From Candidatus Peribacter sp. (GTDB taxonomy: Bacteria; Patescibacteriota; Gracilibacteria; Peribacterales; Peribacteraceae): DNA of 35,048 bases. Made by a program: the position numbers and the translations under genes. Positions 7,726-32,380 of the stretch are shown here, in pieces. How positions within the stretch are numbered: the stretch's first letter is position 1; each line of letters opens with the position of its first letter. The DNA is taken from contig JAUSKD010000036.1 in the NCBI GenBank assembly GCA_030647195.1, positions 1-35,048 on the forward strand, written 5' to 3'. The notes under the pieces were generated by a model. That model ran no database searches. It was not told where the DNA came from and saw only the letters and a list, made by a program, of their open reading frames with translations.

Positions 7726-7769
7726 AAGGAAAGAAAAGAAAGGAAGGGCAGAAAAGTGAGGAAGGCATG
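7726..7769 (+). repeat. Polypurine tract left of S23 gene
   Basis: A purine-only stretch (such as GGAAAGAAAAGAAAGGAAGG) flanks the four-helix-bundle gene on its left. The right flank carries a longer tract of the complementary kind, so the gene sits between imperfect inverted arms that share segments such as AGAAAAGTGAG. Confidence 0.5.
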
Positions 7770-7783
7770 ATTACCCTGTAGAT

Positions 7784-8161
7784 ATGTTAAGAAAGTACGA
7801 TAAAGGCTTCCGCAAATTGATCATTTGGCAGGAGGCTCGAAGACTCATGCTGAAAATCTACAAGCTGTCCGGCTTGTTACCCAAAGAGGAACAATTCAAT
7901 CTCATCTCTCAACTTCGACGTGCAGCGACATCGGTGGGCGCCAACATAGCTGAAGGATCCGCTATGCAGACTTCGGCACACCGGGAAGTGTATTTCATGA
8001 GGGCACGTGGTTCAGTCGCAGAATTGGATTGCCTCGTGGAGCTGTGCCATGATCTTGGGTTTATCTCCGATACGATCGCCGCTGATGCAATCGATCATTG
8101 TTCCAGACAAAGCTATCTCCTCACGAGCACCCTCCGCGCAATGCGGCAGCGATCACACTGA
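7784..8161 (+). CDS. Four-helix bundle protein (S23 / rRNA intervening-sequence type)
   Basis: The 125-residue all-helical protein carries the signature of the S23 family: LIIWQEARRLMLKIYKLSG at the start, EEQFNLISQLRRAATSVGAN, IAEGSA, and ARGSVAELDCLVELC. These proteins are encoded in intervening sequences of 23S rRNA in some bacteria and, in many uncultured lineages, as free-standing genes; they assemble as pentamers and their function is not established. Here the gene is not inside rRNA. It is flanked by complementary polypurine/polypyrimidine arms, as if it had arrived as a cassette. Confidence 0.88.
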   Translation: MLRKYDKGFRKLIIWQEARRLMLKIYKLSGLLPKEEQFNLISQLRRAATSVGANIAEGSAMQTSAHREVYFMRARGSVAELDCLVELCHDLGFISDTIAADAIDHCSRQSYLLTSTLRAMRQRSH

Positions 8162-8163
8162 TT

Positions 8164-8235
8164 CTCCTTCCTGCCCTTTCATTCCTCTCTTTCCTTTCTC
8201 ACTTTTCTTTCTTTTCTGTCCTTTCTGCCCTCCCG
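8164..8235 (+). repeat. Polypyrimidine tract right of S23 gene
   Basis: About 70 bases of almost pure C/T follow the S23 stop codon. Read on the opposite strand the tract resembles the purine tract to the left of the gene, sharing CAGAAAAG and AAAAGTGAG segments. It may also end transcription of the S23 gene, but no clear hairpin is seen. Confidence 0.5.
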
Positions 8236-11454: not shown

Positions 11455-12981
11455 TTACTTCCTCTGCAACAGACTCACCGCCTCGATATGCGCCGTATGC
11501 GGGAACAAATCCACCGGCTGCACGGTCCGAAGCTCGTAACCGGATTTGAGGAACTCCCCCAGATCGCGCGCGAAGGTGGCCATGTTGCACGACACGTAGA
11601 CGATCTTGTCTGGCTTGTGGGCCGCGACCGCCTCGCGCGCATCGGGGTGCAGTCCCGCCCGCGGCGGATCCACGACAATCGTATTGAACTTGTACTTGGA
11701 TCCGGGTTTCAGCTGGTCATTGAGCACCTGCTCGGCACGCCCGCGATAGAAGCTGATATTGCCGATGCGGTTCTTGCCCGCGCTCTTGAGCGCATCCTCG
11801 ATGGCCGACGGATGACTTTCGATCCCCACGACCTTCTCGCAGTACCGCGAGAGGTACTGCCCGATCGTGCCCATGCCGCAGTACGCATCCAGCACCGTGT
11901 CTCGGGGACTTAAGTCCGCCGCCGCCGCCACTGACTGGTAGAGCTTCTCGGCACCGAGCGTGTTTGTCTGAAAGAAAGAGAAGGGCGAGATCTCGAACGA
12001 GAGGTCAAAGAGCTTTTCGGTGATGGTGGGCTTGCCCGTGAGCACGTGGACCTTGGGCGTCTCGGGCTTGTCGTTCAGCCCCAGATGCTCGACCACAAGA
12101 AGAGAAGCGAGACCCGAACGCCCGCCGAAGCGCATGAAATACTGGAACAGCGGCTCGAGCTCTTTTTTGCGCGCATTCACGAGGAACGCAATCATCTGCT
12201 CGCCCGTGTTGATGCCACGCCGGAGCAAAAGGATCCGGAGCATGCCGCGATGCGTCTTGGGGTTGTAGACCGGAAGCTTGGTCTCGCGCATGAACCGCTG
12301 CACGTCGGTGAGCAGGCTCGGCAGCTGTTCATCATAGAGGTGACATTCGTTGATCGGCAGGATCGTGGACCACTGGTTGGGCAGGTGGAATCCGATGGAG
12401 GGATTTTCGTCGATGTACTGCTTGCGCCCATTCTTCTCTTCGGTGCGCATGGCCTCGAAACCGAACGACAGCTCCAGCTTGTTGCGATAGTGAAACACCT
12501 GCGGGCTCGGAATGATCTTGAGCACCCGCCCCGCAAGGGACGCGCGCACGGAAGCATCCGCGGGAGTCAGATGCGAGAGGGTCTCGCGCACGATCTCCTC
12601 CTTGTACTCGATCTGCTTCACGTACGAAAGCTGCTGCCACACACAGCCGCCGCACGCGTGACAGTGGGCGCATTTGGGCTGCACCTCATCCTTGGAGCGC
12701 TTGATGATCTTCGAAATTTTGGCTTCGGCGAAGTTGCCGCGGTTCTTGAGGATGACGATCTCCGCCTTCTGCCCCGGCAGGGCTCCTGTCACAAAGACGG
12801 GGAGTGTCTCGATATGCGCCAACCCCGCACCGCCGTGCGTCAGTTTTTCGATCGTCACCGTGTGTTTCTCGCCGGACTGCATTTTGACCGCCTGCACGGC
12901 GGAACCTGCGGCAGAATCGCCGTCAGATGAGCCAGCCTTGGGGCTAAGCCCAATGTCCTCTGTTTCGTGGGATATTGACAT
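11455..12981 (-). CDS. rlmD: 23S rRNA (uracil-C5)-methyltransferase, RumA/RlmD family
   Basis: This 508-residue class I methyltransferase makes 5-methyluridine in 23S rRNA. It has an N-terminal TRAM domain (TIEKLTHGGAGLAHI, residues ~42-95), Fe-S cluster cysteines C104, C107, C110 and C113 with Cys213 (NECHL) another candidate ligand, and the SAM-binding fold: FFQTN, DAYCGMGTIG (~365-374), VVDPPRAGL (Asp438) and the catalytic YVSCN (Cys465). ATG 12981 has an AGGAG very close by; a later ATG at residue 34 is possible because the first 33 residues are poorly conserved in type. The reading frame stays open upstream to 13785, but that part overlaps the opposite-strand gene. U1939 specificity (RlmD) versus U747 (RlmC) is not decided. 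Confidence 0.88.
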   Translation of the reverse strand: MSISHETEDIGLSPKAGSSDGDSAAGSAVQAVKMQSGEKHTVTIEKLTHGGAGLAHIETLPVFVTGALPGQKAEIVILKNRGNFAEAKISKIIKRSKDEVQPKCAHCHACGGCVWQQLSYVKQIEYKEEIVRETLSHLTPADASVRASLAGRVLKIIPSPQVFHYRNKLELSFGFEAMRTEEKNGRKQYIDENPSIGFHLPNQWSTILPINECHLYDEQLPSLLTDVQRFMRETKLPVYNPKTHRGMLRILLLRRGINTGEQMIAFLVNARKKELEPLFQYFMRFGGRSGLASLLVVEHLGLNDKPETPKVHVLTGKPTITEKLFDLSFEISPFSFFQTNTLGAEKLYQSVAAAADLSPRDTVLDAYCGMGTIGQYLSRYCEKVVGIESHPSAIEDALKSAGKNRIGNISFYRGRAEQVLNDQLKPGSKYKFNTIVVDPPRAGLHPDAREAVAAHKPDKIVYVSCNMATFARDLGEFLKSGYELRTVQPVDLFPHTAHIEAVSLLQRK

Positions 12982-13023
12982 CTCTCCTAAAAAGTAGTAT
13001 AAATAACACCTTTTTGCCTTCAC
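12982..13023. promoter_or_regulatory. Divergent promoter region
   Basis: The 42-bp AT-rich gap between divergent genes contains TATACT on the minus strand (14 bases before the methyltransferase ATG) and TATAAA on the plus strand (20 bases before the GTG at 13024). The two start regions overlap. Confidence 0.45.
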
Positions 13024-27309: not shown

Positions 27310-28755
27310 ATGCCCCAACTGGAAGCGGTGATCGGCCTCGAAGTCCACGCGCAGATGAATACCAAGACGAAGATGTTCTGCGGGTGTGATAATGACGCGT
27401 TCGGCAAGGCACCGAATACCACCGTGTGCCCCGTCTGCATGGGATTCCCGGGAACGCTCCCCGTGCCGAATGAGGAGGCGATTCAAAAAGCGGTCAAGGC
27501 ATCACTCGCGATCGGCTGCGCCGTGGCGCCCTCATGCCACTTCGACCGCAAGCACTACTTCTACCCCGACCTGCCCGCGGGATTCCAGATTTCGCAGTAT
27601 GACTTTCCTCTGGCCAAAGGCGGAAAAGTGGATTTTGACCTCGTGGATGCAAGCGGCTCTGCAATAGGAGAACGCTCCTGCCGTATCACGCGGCTGCACA
27701 TGGAGAATGATGCGGGCAAGTTGAGCCATTACGGCAACAACACGCTCTGTGACTACAACCGTGCAGGGACGCCGCTCATGGAGATCGTCACCGAACCGGA
27801 TCTGAAGTCCGCGGAAGATGCCGTCGCCTTCGCGCAGGAACTCCGCCGCATTTTGATTTCCGTGGGAGCGAGCGACGCCGATATGTTCAAAGGCATGATG
27901 CGGTTTGATGCCAGTATCTCGCTCAAGGAAAAAGGGACAGAAAAGCTCAATCCCCGCAGCGAGATCAAGAACTTAAACTCCTTCAAGGCACTCGAAAAAG
28001 CGCTGCAGTATGAGGAAAAACGCCTGCGCGAACTGTGGGAGAAAGACAAAGGTCCTCTGCCGCACGACATCACCGTCGGCTGGCTGGATGACGAAGAAAA
28101 GACCCATGTCCTCCGCGACAAAGAAACTGCCGGCGATTACCGCTACTTCCCCGAACCCGATCTGCCGCCGCTCTCCTTCGATACCCCGGAATTGGAAAAA
28201 ATCCGCACCGCCCTGCCGCCGCTGCCGCGCGCGGAGAAGAAGAAGCTTTCGGATCTGGGGCTCACCGATGCCGAGGCGCAGCAGTTAAACGCGGACCCTG
28301 ATCTGAAAAAAATCTACGAAGCGGTGTTGGGACGGTTGAAGGACCCCAAGCGCGCTTCGGGCATCGTGATCACGCAGCTCACGGGATTCCTGAAAGCGGC
28401 GGGCAAGACCGTGCGGCAAGGCCCCGGTGCACAGGCCATGCTCGACCTGGTGGATGCGATTGAAAGCGGGAAGATCTCCGGCAGCAAAGGGAAGGAAGTG
28501 CTCGGCAAGATGGTGGAAACCGGCAAGTCCGCCCCCGAGATTATTGCGGATGAGGGGATGCGGCAGATCACGGATGAAGGCGCGCTGGATGCGCTCGTGG
28601 AGAAGGCCATCGCCGCGAACCCCAAGGCCGTTGAGTCGTACAAAAACGGCAAAACCCAGGCCCTCGGCGCGATTGTCGGCTGGGTGATGAAAGAGACGAA
28701 GGGGCAGGCCAGCCCGGAGAAGGTGAATGCAATCCTCCTCAAAAAAATCGTTTAA
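27310..28755 (+). CDS. gatB: Asp/Glu-tRNA amidotransferase subunit B
   Basis: The 481-residue subunit of GatCAB activates Glu-tRNA(Gln) or Asp-tRNA(Asn) for amidation. It starts at ATG 27310 with the invariant VIGLEVHAQMNTKTKMFCGC, whose two Cys with CPVCMGFPG form the zinc site. YFYPDLP, RITRLHMENDAGK, DYNRAGTPLMEIVTEPD and DYRYFPEPDLPP follow. The C-terminal YqeY-like helical domain (KETKGQASPEKVNAIL) is intact, so the protein is full length. gatA and gatC are not in the window. Confidence 0.96.
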   Translation: MPQLEAVIGLEVHAQMNTKTKMFCGCDNDAFGKAPNTTVCPVCMGFPGTLPVPNEEAIQKAVKASLAIGCAVAPSCHFDRKHYFYPDLPAGFQISQYDFPLAKGGKVDFDLVDASGSAIGERSCRITRLHMENDAGKLSHYGNNTLCDYNRAGTPLMEIVTEPDLKSAEDAVAFAQELRRILISVGASDADMFKGMMRFDASISLKEKGTEKLNPRSEIKNLNSFKALEKALQYEEKRLRELWEKDKGPLPHDITVGWLDDEEKTHVLRDKETAGDYRYFPEPDLPPLSFDTPELEKIRTALPPLPRAEKKKLSDLGLTDAEAQQLNADPDLKKIYEAVLGRLKDPKRASGIVITQLTGFLKAAGKTVRQGPGAQAMLDLVDAIESGKISGSKGKEVLGKMVETGKSAPEIIADEGMRQITDEGALDALVEKAIAANPKAVESYKNGKTQALGAIVGWVMKETKGQASPEKVNAILLKKIV

Positions 28756-28759
28756 AATT

Positions 28760-28783
28760 CCCGGGAGTCCTGTGACTCCCGGG
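28760..28783. terminator. Perfect 10-bp hairpin between gatB and small Cys-rich gene
   Basis: CCCGGGAGTC and GACTCCCGGG pair around a 4-nt loop, 4 bases after the gatB stop. Palindromes AGCTGCA/TGCAGCT (28791-28805) and CTGCGGA/TCCGCAG (28813-28832) follow, the latter covering the stop of the minus-strand peptide gene. Together they probably end both convergent transcripts, although T runs are short. Confidence 0.55.
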
Positions 28784-28822
28784 CGTCTCGAGCTGCAATG
28801 CAGCTATTGTTCCTGCGGACGA

Positions 28823-28990
28823 CTATCCGCAGCAGCATCCGTGGCAACCACCGGCGGCGATACAGCCGTCACAGGGTGACGACCGACCACACGGGGTAGC
28901 AGCCTTCCGCGTACTCTGTGCCCTTTTCGGCTGCTTTATCTTGGCAGCCTTTTTCTTGACCTTGGGAGCCGCATTTTTCTTCGTGGCCAT
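28823..28990 (-). CDS. 55-residue Lys/Ala- and Cys-rich peptide
   Basis: The first ~32 residues are a basic Lys/Ala stretch (ATKKNAAPKVKKKAAKIKQP, then KRAQSTRKAAT) resembling histone H1-like tails; the last ~22 hold seven cysteines (PCGRSSPCDGC, GGCHGCCCG). There is no signal peptide. The gene is below common length cut-offs but has the best expression signals of the window: AGGAGG 11 bases before ATG 28990 and a TTGACA/TATATT promoter upstream. Possibilities, all inferred: a nucleic-acid-binding metal protein, a metallothionein-like peptide, or the precursor of a modified peptide, though no modifying enzyme is adjacent. It converges on gatB. Confidence 0.7.
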   Translation of the reverse strand: MATKKNAAPKVKKKAAKIKQPKRAQSTRKAATPCGRSSPCDGCIAAGGCHGCCCG

Positions 28991-29049
28991 GATTTTGAAA
29001 GCCTCCTGCAGAAAAAGGAGCGTGGTACTGGGAATACGAGACTTAGAGT

Positions 29050-29078
29050 AATATAAAATATATGTTCAATAATGTCAA
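29050..29078 (-). promoter_or_regulatory. Strong promoter of Cys-rich peptide gene
   Basis: On the minus strand TTGACA (29073-29078), 17-bp AT-rich spacer, TATATT (29050-29055). This is the closest match to consensus in the window. The ~50-nt leader holds AGGAGG (29002-29007), with a CTCC just upstream that could pair with it (CTCC-10 nt-GGAG). Confidence 0.7.
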
Positions 29079-29093
29079 TAACCTGCCACGTCC

Positions 29094-29126
29094 CCCAACT
29101 CCTTACCCCTACACCTAACCCTAACA
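29094..29126 (+). repeat. Hexamer CCCTAA-type tandem repeat E, copy 3
   Basis: CCTTAC, CCCTAC, ACCTAA, CCCTAA in period 6, ending at the efp stop codon. It again contains the CCCTAC-NCCTRR-CCCTAA order. Here it lies 3' of a minus-strand gene, so relative to the gene it reads as TTAGGG-type repeats. Confidence 0.75.
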
Positions 29127-29684
29127 TTACGCCTTCTTCATATATTCGCCGGTTTCCGTATTCACCTTCACCTTGTCACCCTCTGTAATGAAGAGAGGCA
29201 CCTGGACCGTGAGGCCGCTTTCCAGCTTGGCGGGTTTGCCACCGCCCGACGCCGTATCGCCCTTCACGCCCGGCTCCGTCTCGATGACCTTCAGATCCAC
29301 CGTGGAGGGCAGCTGAATGCCGATCGGATGCTCCTCGAACATCAGCGCATCCACTTCGCCTCCCTCAACCAGATACTGGACGGCATCGCCGAGCGTTTCT
29401 TTGTTGAGGAAAAACTGGTCATAGCTCTGCAGATCCATGAACGTGTACTGCTCGCCGTCATTGAAGAGGTACTGCACGCGGCGGTAGCCCACATCGGCCG
29501 GTTCCACCTGCTCACTGCCCTGAAAGTTCTTGGCAATCACCGCCCCCGTCTTCATGTTCTTCAGTTTGCACTGCATGTTCGCCTTGCTCTGGCTCTTGCG
29601 GCCGAATTGGGAGGCGACGATGAGATAGGGAATCCCGTCGAGTTGAATGGCGCGGCCCGGTTTGAGCTCTGTGATCACGTACAT
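29127..29684 (-). CDS. efp: Elongation factor P with unusual loop
   Basis: The 185-residue, three-domain OB-fold factor relieves ribosome stalling at polyproline. The fold is clear: ELKPGRAIQLDGIPYLIVAS, KLKNMKTGAV, QYLFNDGEQYTFMDLQSYDQF, IGIQLPSTVDLKVIETEPGVKGDTA, and a C-terminal ITEGDKVKVNTETGEYMKKA. The tip of domain I, usually PGKG with the modified Lys34 (or Arg32 in another group), reads GRKSQSKAN here, so the position aligned with Lys34 is Gln, with lysines two places to either side. The modification, if any, must differ. No EpmA, EpmB or EarP gene is in the window. Confidence 0.94.
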   Translation of the reverse strand: MYVITELKPGRAIQLDGIPYLIVASQFGRKSQSKANMQCKLKNMKTGAVIAKNFQGSEQVEPADVGYRRVQYLFNDGEQYTFMDLQSYDQFFLNKETLGDAVQYLVEGGEVDALMFEEHPIGIQLPSTVDLKVIETEPGVKGDTASGGGKPAKLESGLTVQVPLFITEGDKVKVNTETGEYMKKA

Positions 29685-29834: not shown

Positions 29835-31754
29835 TCACTGCTGCCCCGCCTTTTCCCAGCCCAAACGGATGATCTCCTGCCGTACGCGATCGGGGAAGTT
29901 TTCGGGTCCGCCGGGGAGCGCGAAGTAGAGCCTGCGCAGAATCCGGCCCTGATCGGCATGTCCCTCGAGCGCCTTGAGCTCCTGCGTGAACTGGTTCAAG
30001 CGGGCCTGTGTGAGGTGGTAGACGAAGATGCGCTGTTTGATACCCGCCACGATCAGCTGGATATCGGACTCGGACAATGTCGGTGCCTCTTCCGCCGGCA
30101 GGTAGGCGGAGATCTGCTGGAGCAGAATCGGATCCACCTTCTGCGTCTGGCCCAGCTCCTCCTGCTGGTCGAGGGAGAGCGAGAGCATCTCCAATGACGC
30201 CAATGCCTCACGCTGCACCTCCGGCTTGAGCGAGGACGTACCGCCCTTGAGAATCTGGAGCTGCGGACTCAGCTGCGCCCACATGTCCGGCAGGGCCTGC
30301 AGATTCCCCGTTTCGACGGTTTGTGTCAGAACGCTCAAGGCATCCAGCAGCAGACTGTCGCGGGCATCATCGGGAGCACTGACGCCGTCGGCAAGCTGGG
30401 AGCTCGTCTCGAGCACCACCTGCTTCAGCATGTACCCCTGATCGCCCGGCAGTGTGGCTGCAAGGTCACTCGCGTTCTGCGACACAACCTGTTTCAGAAG
30501 GAACTGTGCGAGCGTCGCATCACCGGATCCCGTGGCGAGTGCCACGAGCGTCGAGCGGTACTCTTCGAGGGGCAGGGCCACGGCGCCGGTTTGCCCTTGC
30601 GCGAGGAGCGCCGCCGCCTCGGTCAGACGCGTATCGGCATGCTGGAGTTGTTTCTGCATTTTGGCTTCATCACCGATGGTGAGGAAGAGATCCATCGCCT
30701 CCACGGCACGCTTGACCGGGTAGAGGGTGGATGTGGGCAGAATACGTGCGCGCCCCGCCAGACGGGTCTGCTGGAGCGCCGCGACCTCCTGACGATGCAC
30801 AGCATCGAGCGTCAGATTGCCCTGCGCCCACGGAGACTGGTAGGAACCGTCGGGGAGCTTCTGTGCAAAAGGAGTGTCGGTGGCACGGAGGGTGACCCCC
30901 TGCCCGGCGACAAGCGGAATATTCTTCCCGTTACGCGTGACCACGGCGCTGCGGTCATACACTTCGACGCGCATTTCACGATCACCGCCGATCGACACGC
31001 TGCCGCCGTTCACGGTCACGAGACCCACGGGGGTGAATACCGTAAGACCGCGCAGATTCGCAGGAATAATGCCCTGTATCCAGAGACGCCCCGCAAAGAG
31101 CGACAAGGTGGGTACCAGCTCCGAGGCGGGCTCCATCCGATCCGAAAGATCCACAAGATCGATCATCGTTCCATGATCAAGGCGGACCACGCCGTCATCC
31201 CCCAACACGATGCTGGCCTGACCGTCCGCTCCTGTCTGAATGCGCATGCCCGCACGCAGCGTCACTTCCTGCGTCACCGGCTGCCAGACCTCATCGACGA
31301 GGATGGACACAGTGCCGTGCGGCAGCAGCATCGTCTCGGAGAGCGCGGCAGAGGGAGACGCCCAGAAAATCCGGGGACTCATCTGCACGACAAAAACGAG
31401 AAGCACCGCCGTGGCGGCCCACTTCATCCCCCAGAACATGTGACGGCTCTGCTGCACGGGTACAAGCTCGGATGAGAAGCGCTGCCAGAGAAGCTGCGAT
31501 AACCCTTCCGGAGCCGCAAACCACCCGCGGAGCTCCGCGAGGAAGCCGTGGGCACGGTTGGCAAGAAGGGAAGCGGAAATGCGCTCCCAGATGACACGCT
31601 TCGATTCGGATGTGGGTGTGAGCGAAGCTTTGGCCGCCCTGAGCGCCGCAGGCACCTCCATCCGCGCCTGCAGACGGGCCCGGATACGGCTCTGTGCGCC
31701 CGCAGAGGGCGTCAGGTCACGTTGGAGCCGCAGGAGGAGGTCCTCTGTCGACAT
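29835..31754 (-). CDS. FecR/DUF5667 membrane protein, probable anti-sigma factor
   Basis: The 639-residue protein starts at ATG 31754. The N-terminal ~100 residues are cytoplasmic and helical; one membrane helix (GMKWAATAVLLVFVVQM, ~107-127) follows. Outside is a FecR domain (~143-290: LPHGTVSILVD, GDDGVVRLDHGTMIDLVD, FTPVGLVTVNGGSVSIGGD). Further on, ILPTSTLYPVKRAVEAMDLF with HADTRLTEAAALLAQG matches the DUF5667 pattern, ending in helical repeats. It lies 56 bases behind an ECF sigma factor on the same strand, so an anti-sigma or signal-transducing role for an envelope signal is inferred. No zinc-binding ZAS motif is seen. Confidence 0.82.
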   Translation of the reverse strand: MSTEDLLLRLQRDLTPSAGAQSRIRARLQARMEVPAALRAAKASLTPTSESKRVIWERISASLLANRAHGFLAELRGWFAAPEGLSQLLWQRFSSELVPVQQSRHMFWGMKWAATAVLLVFVVQMSPRIFWASPSAALSETMLLPHGTVSILVDEVWQPVTQEVTLRAGMRIQTGADGQASIVLGDDGVVRLDHGTMIDLVDLSDRMEPASELVPTLSLFAGRLWIQGIIPANLRGLTVFTPVGLVTVNGGSVSIGGDREMRVEVYDRSAVVTRNGKNIPLVAGQGVTLRATDTPFAQKLPDGSYQSPWAQGNLTLDAVHRQEVAALQQTRLAGRARILPTSTLYPVKRAVEAMDLFLTIGDEAKMQKQLQHADTRLTEAAALLAQGQTGAVALPLEEYRSTLVALATGSGDATLAQFLLKQVVSQNASDLAATLPGDQGYMLKQVVLETSSQLADGVSAPDDARDSLLLDALSVLTQTVETGNLQALPDMWAQLSPQLQILKGGTSSLKPEVQREALASLEMLSLSLDQQEELGQTQKVDPILLQQISAYLPAEEAPTLSESDIQLIVAGIKQRIFVYHLTQARLNQFTQELKALEGHADQGRILRRLYFALPGGPENFPDRVRQEIIRLGWEKAGQQ

Positions 31755-31810
31755 ATCACACTGAGTAAAACGGGGAAAAGGCGCTTTTGTTACAGCAATA
31801 ACGATAGGCA

Positions 31811-32380
31811 TTACAGCATTCCATGAGCTTCGGGGGGGAGTAGGGATTCCAGTTTTTCCAAGGCACGGAACTTGAGCACCCGCACGGCGCCCTCGCGCAT
31901 GTTGAGGGTGCGGGCGATCTCGCTATGAGGCAGATCCGCCATGTACGAGAGCTGCAGAATGTCGCGGTAGCGCCGGGGCAATTGATCCATGGCGGTGCGC
32001 ACCATCCTGAGAACATCCTCACGCTTGGCATTGGTATCGGCACGATTCATCTCGTCGGGATCGTGGAGCTCTTCGGGTACTTCCTCAGTCTCTTTGTGAG
32101 AACGGTAGACATCGATCACCTCGTACCGCGCAATGCGAAACAGCCACGCCGCGAAGGGAACGCCTTTGCGCTCGGAGTAGGTGTGCAGTTTCTGCCAGAC
32201 CTTGAGAAAGATATCGGCCACAAGATCCTCAGCCATCTCCTTGTCGAAACGGAACGCGGCGTAGCGGTAGACCTGCGGAAAGAAGTGATCGTAGAGCGCG
32301 CTGAACGCCTGCGTGTCGCCCTCCTGCGCCTTGCGCACGAGCCTCTGCAGTTCGGCCTCACCCGGTATTTGAGGATCCAT
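31811..32380 (-). CDS. ECF-type RNA polymerase sigma factor
   Basis: The 189-residue sigma70-family protein has region 2 (DTQAFSALYDHFFPQVYRYAAFRF, DLVADIFLKVWQKL, AWLFRIARYEVIDVYR, the last recognising the -10) and region 4 (QLPRRYRDILQLSYMADLPHSEIARTLNMREGAVRVLKFRALEKL, helix-turn-helix for the -35). Regions 1 and 3 are absent, as in ECF sigma factors. It is followed by the FecR/DUF5667 protein, probably its regulator. TATACT lies 9 bases before the ATG. Confidence 0.93.
   Translation of the reverse strand: MDPQIPGEAELQRLVRKAQEGDTQAFSALYDHFFPQVYRYAAFRFDKEMAEDLVADIFLKVWQKLHTYSERKGVPFAAWLFRIARYEVIDVYRSHKETEEVPEELHDPDEMNRADTNAKREDVLRMVRTAMDQLPRRYRDILQLSYMADLPHSEIARTLNMREGAVRVLKFRALEKLESLLPPEAHGML

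Follow-up and report, generated by a model that had tools for sequence, protein, structure and literature searches.

Several described systems resemble, each in part, the small protein considered here. Bacterial metallothioneins of the SmtA and PmtA type are small, Cys-dense proteins organised by metal, the precursors of azole-containing RiPPs have a core rich in Cys, Gly and Ser, and the H1-like basic proteins of bacteria are rich in Lys and Ala. The [4Fe-4S] loop of endonuclease III and MutY has the spacing Cys-X6-Cys-X2-Cys-X5-Cys, as set out in PMC11138216. The protein that we compare with them, P0001, is encoded by 55 codons on the minus strand at 28823-28990 of the window, the 35,048-nucleotide stretch of Candidatus Peribacter DNA analysed here (genome G000; window G+C 59%).

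The coordinates, strand and translation of the open reading frame were verified, and the original prediction of a Lys/Ala and seven-Cys peptide behind TTGACA-N17-TATATT, AGGAGG and an ATG is confirmed, as is its division into a basic half and a cysteine cluster. Residues 1-32 form a basic tail with 12 K/R and neither acidic residues nor Cys, and residues 33-55 form a core that holds all seven Cys with gaps of 5-2-5-2-0-0 (C-X5-C-X2-C-X5-C-X2-C-C-C), such that the seven fall within 21 residues. The whole protein has 13 K/R against a single acidic residue and lacks aromatic residues, and with this composition and Cys density folding around a hydrophobic core seems unlikely; the AlphaFold model has no confident fold (mean pLDDT 56.2, pTM 0.20). 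By eye, neither a signal peptide nor a double-Gly leader site is seen. Neither P0001 nor its homologue described below matches any Pfam or NCBIfam family at E values up to 10, PHROGs has no match for the peptide and Rfam covariance models have none at the locus, and a literature search that included three core words returned nothing on the 55-residue peptide. The sole match in a PDB profile search (E 0.36) is taken as chance, as is one PADLOC match to the homologue (E 0.2), PADLOC giving nothing for P0001.

P0001 is like the metallothioneins in its length of about 55 residues, its Cys density, its lack of aromatic residues and the organisation by metal that would be expected of it, although the Cys spacing of known metallothioneins differs from that of P0001. 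Bacterial metallothioneins are treated in PMC10612145. From them P0001 is further distinguished by a single compact C-terminal Cys block, a Cys-free 32-residue Lys/Ala tail and the lack of a match to the prokaryotic metallothionein family profile in Pfam or NCBIfam (either copy, E up to 10). Both copies nevertheless have the small, Cys-dense and aromatic-free make-up looked for in a metallothionein, each lacking F, W and Y and packing its seven Cys into 21 residues. Within the core, C34-X5-C40-X2-C43-X5-C49 is one residue short of the endonuclease III/MutY spacing, with gaps of 5-2-5 rather than 6-2-5 in both copies; gaps of 6-2-5 do occur in the window's own HhH-GPD protein. P0001 has no HhH-GPD domain (it is 55 residues long and has no Pfam match), it carries three extra Cys, and no homology was detected, and we regard the likeness as a lead and not as membership, and one that may be due to chance. 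The Lys/Ala-rich tail recalls the H1-like proteins, but there is no family match, and the tail is only 32 residues long and is joined to a Cys core.

A search of 58 relatives and of 74 genomes of the family gave one convincing match besides the window's own, in a genome of another genus of the same family (G020; 61% identity, E 6e-11), whose copy has seven Cys, all at the same spacing. The conserved 23-codon core (28829-28897, minus strand; TPCGRSSPCxGCIAxGGCxGCCC) is identical at 20 of 23 residues and at 56 of 69 nucleotides, and its 13 substitutions (2, 3 and 8 at the first, second and third codon positions) change only three residues. Random substitution in a Monte Carlo simulation changes 8.5 residues on average, and only about one trial in 10,000 stays at or below three (P about 0.0001), and the other five frames of the core show 7-10 residue changes. 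These values and the NG86 estimates for the core (dN 0.10, dS 0.75) point to purifying selection, the estimate being rough because it comes from one pair of 23 codons in a family of only two known members, but clear in its sign. The lengths before the core differ by eight whole codons. The tail is the fast-evolving part, with 32 of 66 aligned nucleotides identical against the 56 of 69 in the core, and the N-terminal halves differ in both sequence and length while both are basic (K/R 12/32 in the window, 9/24 in G020) and free of acidic residues. With a homologue of conserved Cys pattern and a codon-substitution check that came out in favour of selection, the frame is almost certainly a real coding gene, as had been predicted. 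Conservation in close relatives, to which the prediction had also looked, was not seen in that form, since the gene is absent from four same-genus genomes, although frame and Cys are conserved in the other genus. Between the window and G020, the fourfold sites of the peptide gene have diverged (6/12) about as far as those of gatB (0.58) and of efp (0.56; the G004 efp row, otherwise 92%, was left out of the comparison), from which we conclude that the separation of the two copies is old and that both have been retained since. They may descend either from an old gene that was lost many times or from an old transfer.

The gene has its own expression signals. A sigma-70-type promoter, TTGACA-N17-TATATT (29050-29078, minus strand), matches 11 of 12 consensus bases and agrees with the G020 locus at 19 of 29 aligned positions; one site of this quality occurs in a 901-base stretch, against 0.5 expected from shuffles. 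The promoter had been called the strongest in the window, a rank that it shares with a second 11/12 site at 12975-13003 (plus strand). The 5' untranslated region (28991-29049, minus strand) includes an AGGAGG Shine-Dalgarno sequence at 29007-29002, 11 nt 5' of the ATG. As predicted, most window genes lack such a sequence, with no 4-base core near any early start in 23 of 31 non-overlapping, mechanically called ORFs of at least 100 residues, some of them surely spurious. AGGAGG is found at one of the 31 (7784-8161, plus strand), there inside the frame of a four-helix protein that starts further upstream, and the claim to the strongest Shine-Dalgarno sequence of the window stands with this one qualification. 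The four-helix protein belongs to the 23S_rRNA_IVP family, and an inverted repeat of 45 nt, purine/pyrimidine in composition and 76% complementary, lies on either side of its gene (within 7726-8234). The arrangement is reminiscent of rRNA intervening sequences, but it stands alone.

The leader contains blocks AAGTCTCG and TCCTTT..TGCAGGAGGCT in common with the G020 locus (L002, 1639-1691), with 34 of 55 aligned positions identical and an alignment score reached by 0 of 5000 shuffles, and the TCCTTT-TGCAGGAGGC block is present in 2 of the 74 family genomes, G000 and G020 only. Outside the unit there is little conservation (8 of 21 positions identical upstream, 33 of 89 downstream), and we conclude from these alignments that the transcription unit, promoter and leader included, is conserved and its flanks are not. 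The leader has no stable RNA fold (z between -0.4 and 1.9), and a hairpin pairing TCCT with AGGA and sequestering the Shine-Dalgarno sequence is unsupported, folding being no better than that of shuffles. A likely terminator, read from the sequence and shared with gatB, lies at 28760-28783 (minus strand) as a perfect 10-bp G+C-rich inverted repeat with a short minus-strand T run. A scan that requires 5 T in 8 did not flag it, and flags a 12-bp terminator at the G020 copy. In G020 the promoter was missed by the scanner, and its -10, read by eye as TAATTT, is poor. TTGACA box, Shine-Dalgarno sequence and terminator-like hairpin are present at both loci. The gene is predicted to be independently transcribed, and the promoter, Shine-Dalgarno sequence and conserved leader make high expression plausible.

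In the window the unit lies between gatB (27310-28755, plus strand; Pfam GatB_N, GatB_Yqey), a convergent neighbour, and efp (29127-29684, minus strand; Pfam Elong-fact-P_C, EFP, EFP_N), its upstream neighbour on the same strand, both outside the unit. The contents of this junction vary among genomes (window 27310-29684; loci L129-L133 and L135): G004 and G002 have a 205-residue ORF, G003 a 385-residue ORF with a weak, sub-threshold dehydrogenase/ACT likeness, and G001 short ORFs only, and gatB and efp are 85 bp apart in G020 and 37 bp apart in G015. No remnant of the peptide gene is seen among the other ORFs at the junction of the same-genus genomes, and the junction looks like a site where accessory genes come and go. 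Beyond efp lies a gene for a sigma-70/ECF-type sigma factor (31811-32380, minus strand), followed on its own strand by one for a FecR/DUF5667 protein (29835-31811, minus strand), likely a sigma/anti-sigma pair. In G020 the peptide gene is at an unrelated locus, about 107 nt past tRNA-Val. We also note that this tRNA-Val adjoins a degraded second tRNA-like copy (L115, 8742-9055; repeats D1-D3), possibly a recombination scar. Neither copy was seen to adjoin a gene for metal homeostasis, the G020 neighbours being listed as ORFs and not annotated singly.

The gene is very rare and patchy, at unrelated places in two genomes. Of 353 genomes of the class, two have the strict core pattern; a profile built from the two copies matches 27 of the 353 at E up to 0.05, all but G000 and G020 weakly, one of 379 genomes in a sample of the phylum (G000 itself) and none of the 49 genomes examined from one further class of that phylum. 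The gene is absent, and not decayed, in the four same-genus genomes searched. The third row of the 74-genome family search (L022, E 0.005) was read and is unrelated. A scan of genome contigs, which used words of the G000 peptide only and would miss a G020-type relative, gave L021, the N-terminus of a long ORF resembling glycogen phosphorylase that shares one Cys and is taken as chance. The weak profile matches of five among the 25 remaining genomes (L027-L031), when translated, hold no open Cys-rich small frame. Phages and plasmids have no match to the peptide, and viral contigs have no homologue; 70 viral stretches that match the pattern have nothing like the peptide beyond it. The Cys spacing alone is matched in 13 of 341 class genomes, and the loci concerned (13 besides those of G000 and G020, and 80 of at least 120 viral stretches) are repeats, low-complexity sequence or unlike frames. 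The genomes measure 1.2-1.4 Mb. The best reading of the distribution is that the gene is a dispensable accessory cistron.

As to function, a small protein that binds metal, of a kind so far undescribed, is the likeliest identity of P0001. Close to the DNA/RNA-binding metal-cluster protein first suggested, we propose, with a probability of roughly 0.45 for the whole chain of argument, a mini-protein whose metal site is tethered to nucleic acid or to some other polyanion. A strongly basic, aromatic-free cytosolic protein of 55 residues would be made from its own small transcription unit, and its C-terminal 21-residue, seven-Cys segment would most likely wrap a metal, either Zn, Cu(I) or an Fe-S cluster, in a metallothionein-like manner or as a short Fe-S/Zn loop. 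A Cys-dense, aromatic-free make-up is typical of metal-organised peptides, and thiols in CX2C pairs, in a cytosol expected to be reducing for a protein without a visible signal peptide, also point to metal. The 32-residue tail has stayed basic through changes of sequence and length, which suggests contact with a polyanion, and it would probably tether the metal site to RNA, DNA or the ribosome. Most likely the protein would buffer or sense metal or thiols, a trait both accessory and dispensable. The unconfident AlphaFold model speaks neither for nor against this. Against the metal reading, no family profile for metallothioneins, zinc or Fe-S proteins is matched, and 351 of the 353 class genomes lack the gene.

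The same basic tail is compatible with a different emphasis, in which a small RNA- or ribosome-associated protein works through its tail and a single structural Zn (or Fe-S) holds the Cys loop, as in some small ribosomal proteins. CX2C-X5-CX2C could hold one metal, and the strong promoter and the best Shine-Dalgarno sequence in the window fit such a protein, as does a poly-basic tail retained in both copies despite sequence turnover; that tail is, however, the faster-evolving part, the CCC end exceeds the needs of one structural site, and absence from 351 of 353 genomes is unlike the ribosomal proteins, such that we consider this possible but doubtful. The patchy distribution would suit a peptide precursor, the other function first suggested, whose product is modified or secreted in the manner of a RiPP or bacteriocin, and P0001 has the look of a basic leader followed by a core, its Cys-free N-terminal half preceding a Cys/Gly/Ser-rich C-terminus as in azole-containing RiPP precursors. 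We consider such a precursor improbable, in that two RiPP routes are missing from both carrier genomes: YcaO (PF02624) was found in none of four genomes including G000 and G020, and SPASM (PF13186) in one of the four (G015) and in neither carrier, where 5 and 8 of 14 control genomes, respectively, were positive. Nor do the neighbours (gatB and efp in the window, tRNA-Val and unannotated ORFs in G020) or the lack of a visible double-Gly site or signal peptide favour it.

Being cationic and Cys-rich, P0001 might instead act extracellularly or at the membrane as a disulfide-bonded antimicrobial peptide or contact factor, and Peribacteria are reported to have large Cys-rich proteins that are extracellular (PMC4736985). 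An odd number of Cys, the CCC run, the lack of a signal peptide by eye and the lack of any exporter gene noticed beside the gene make this very unlikely. Least credible is that the frame goes untranslated and that what is conserved is a regulatory DNA element or a small RNA. Conservation extends into the leader, as it might for such an element, but the substitutions favour third positions, the frame is kept across length changes, residue changes are far fewer than under random substitution, there is no Rfam match and the leader lacks a stable fold.

The metal-binding, polyanion-tethered reading can be taken further, to a new micro-protein family in which a minimal metal or Fe-S loop with a poly-basic tether to nucleic acid or the ribosome serves as a metal/redox sensor or buffer, encoded by a self-contained cassette of promoter, leader, gene and terminator that moves between streamlined genomes; in this full form we think it unlikely to hold. 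Genes of fewer than 60 codons are easily overlooked in annotation, and this one appears to be under selection at the protein level, with a conserved leader, in a small genome and despite its rarity. If the Cys core does hold a cluster, P0001 would couple a metal site of very small size to a tail that binds nucleic acid, and core and tail are simple enough to be tested as a synthetic peptide.
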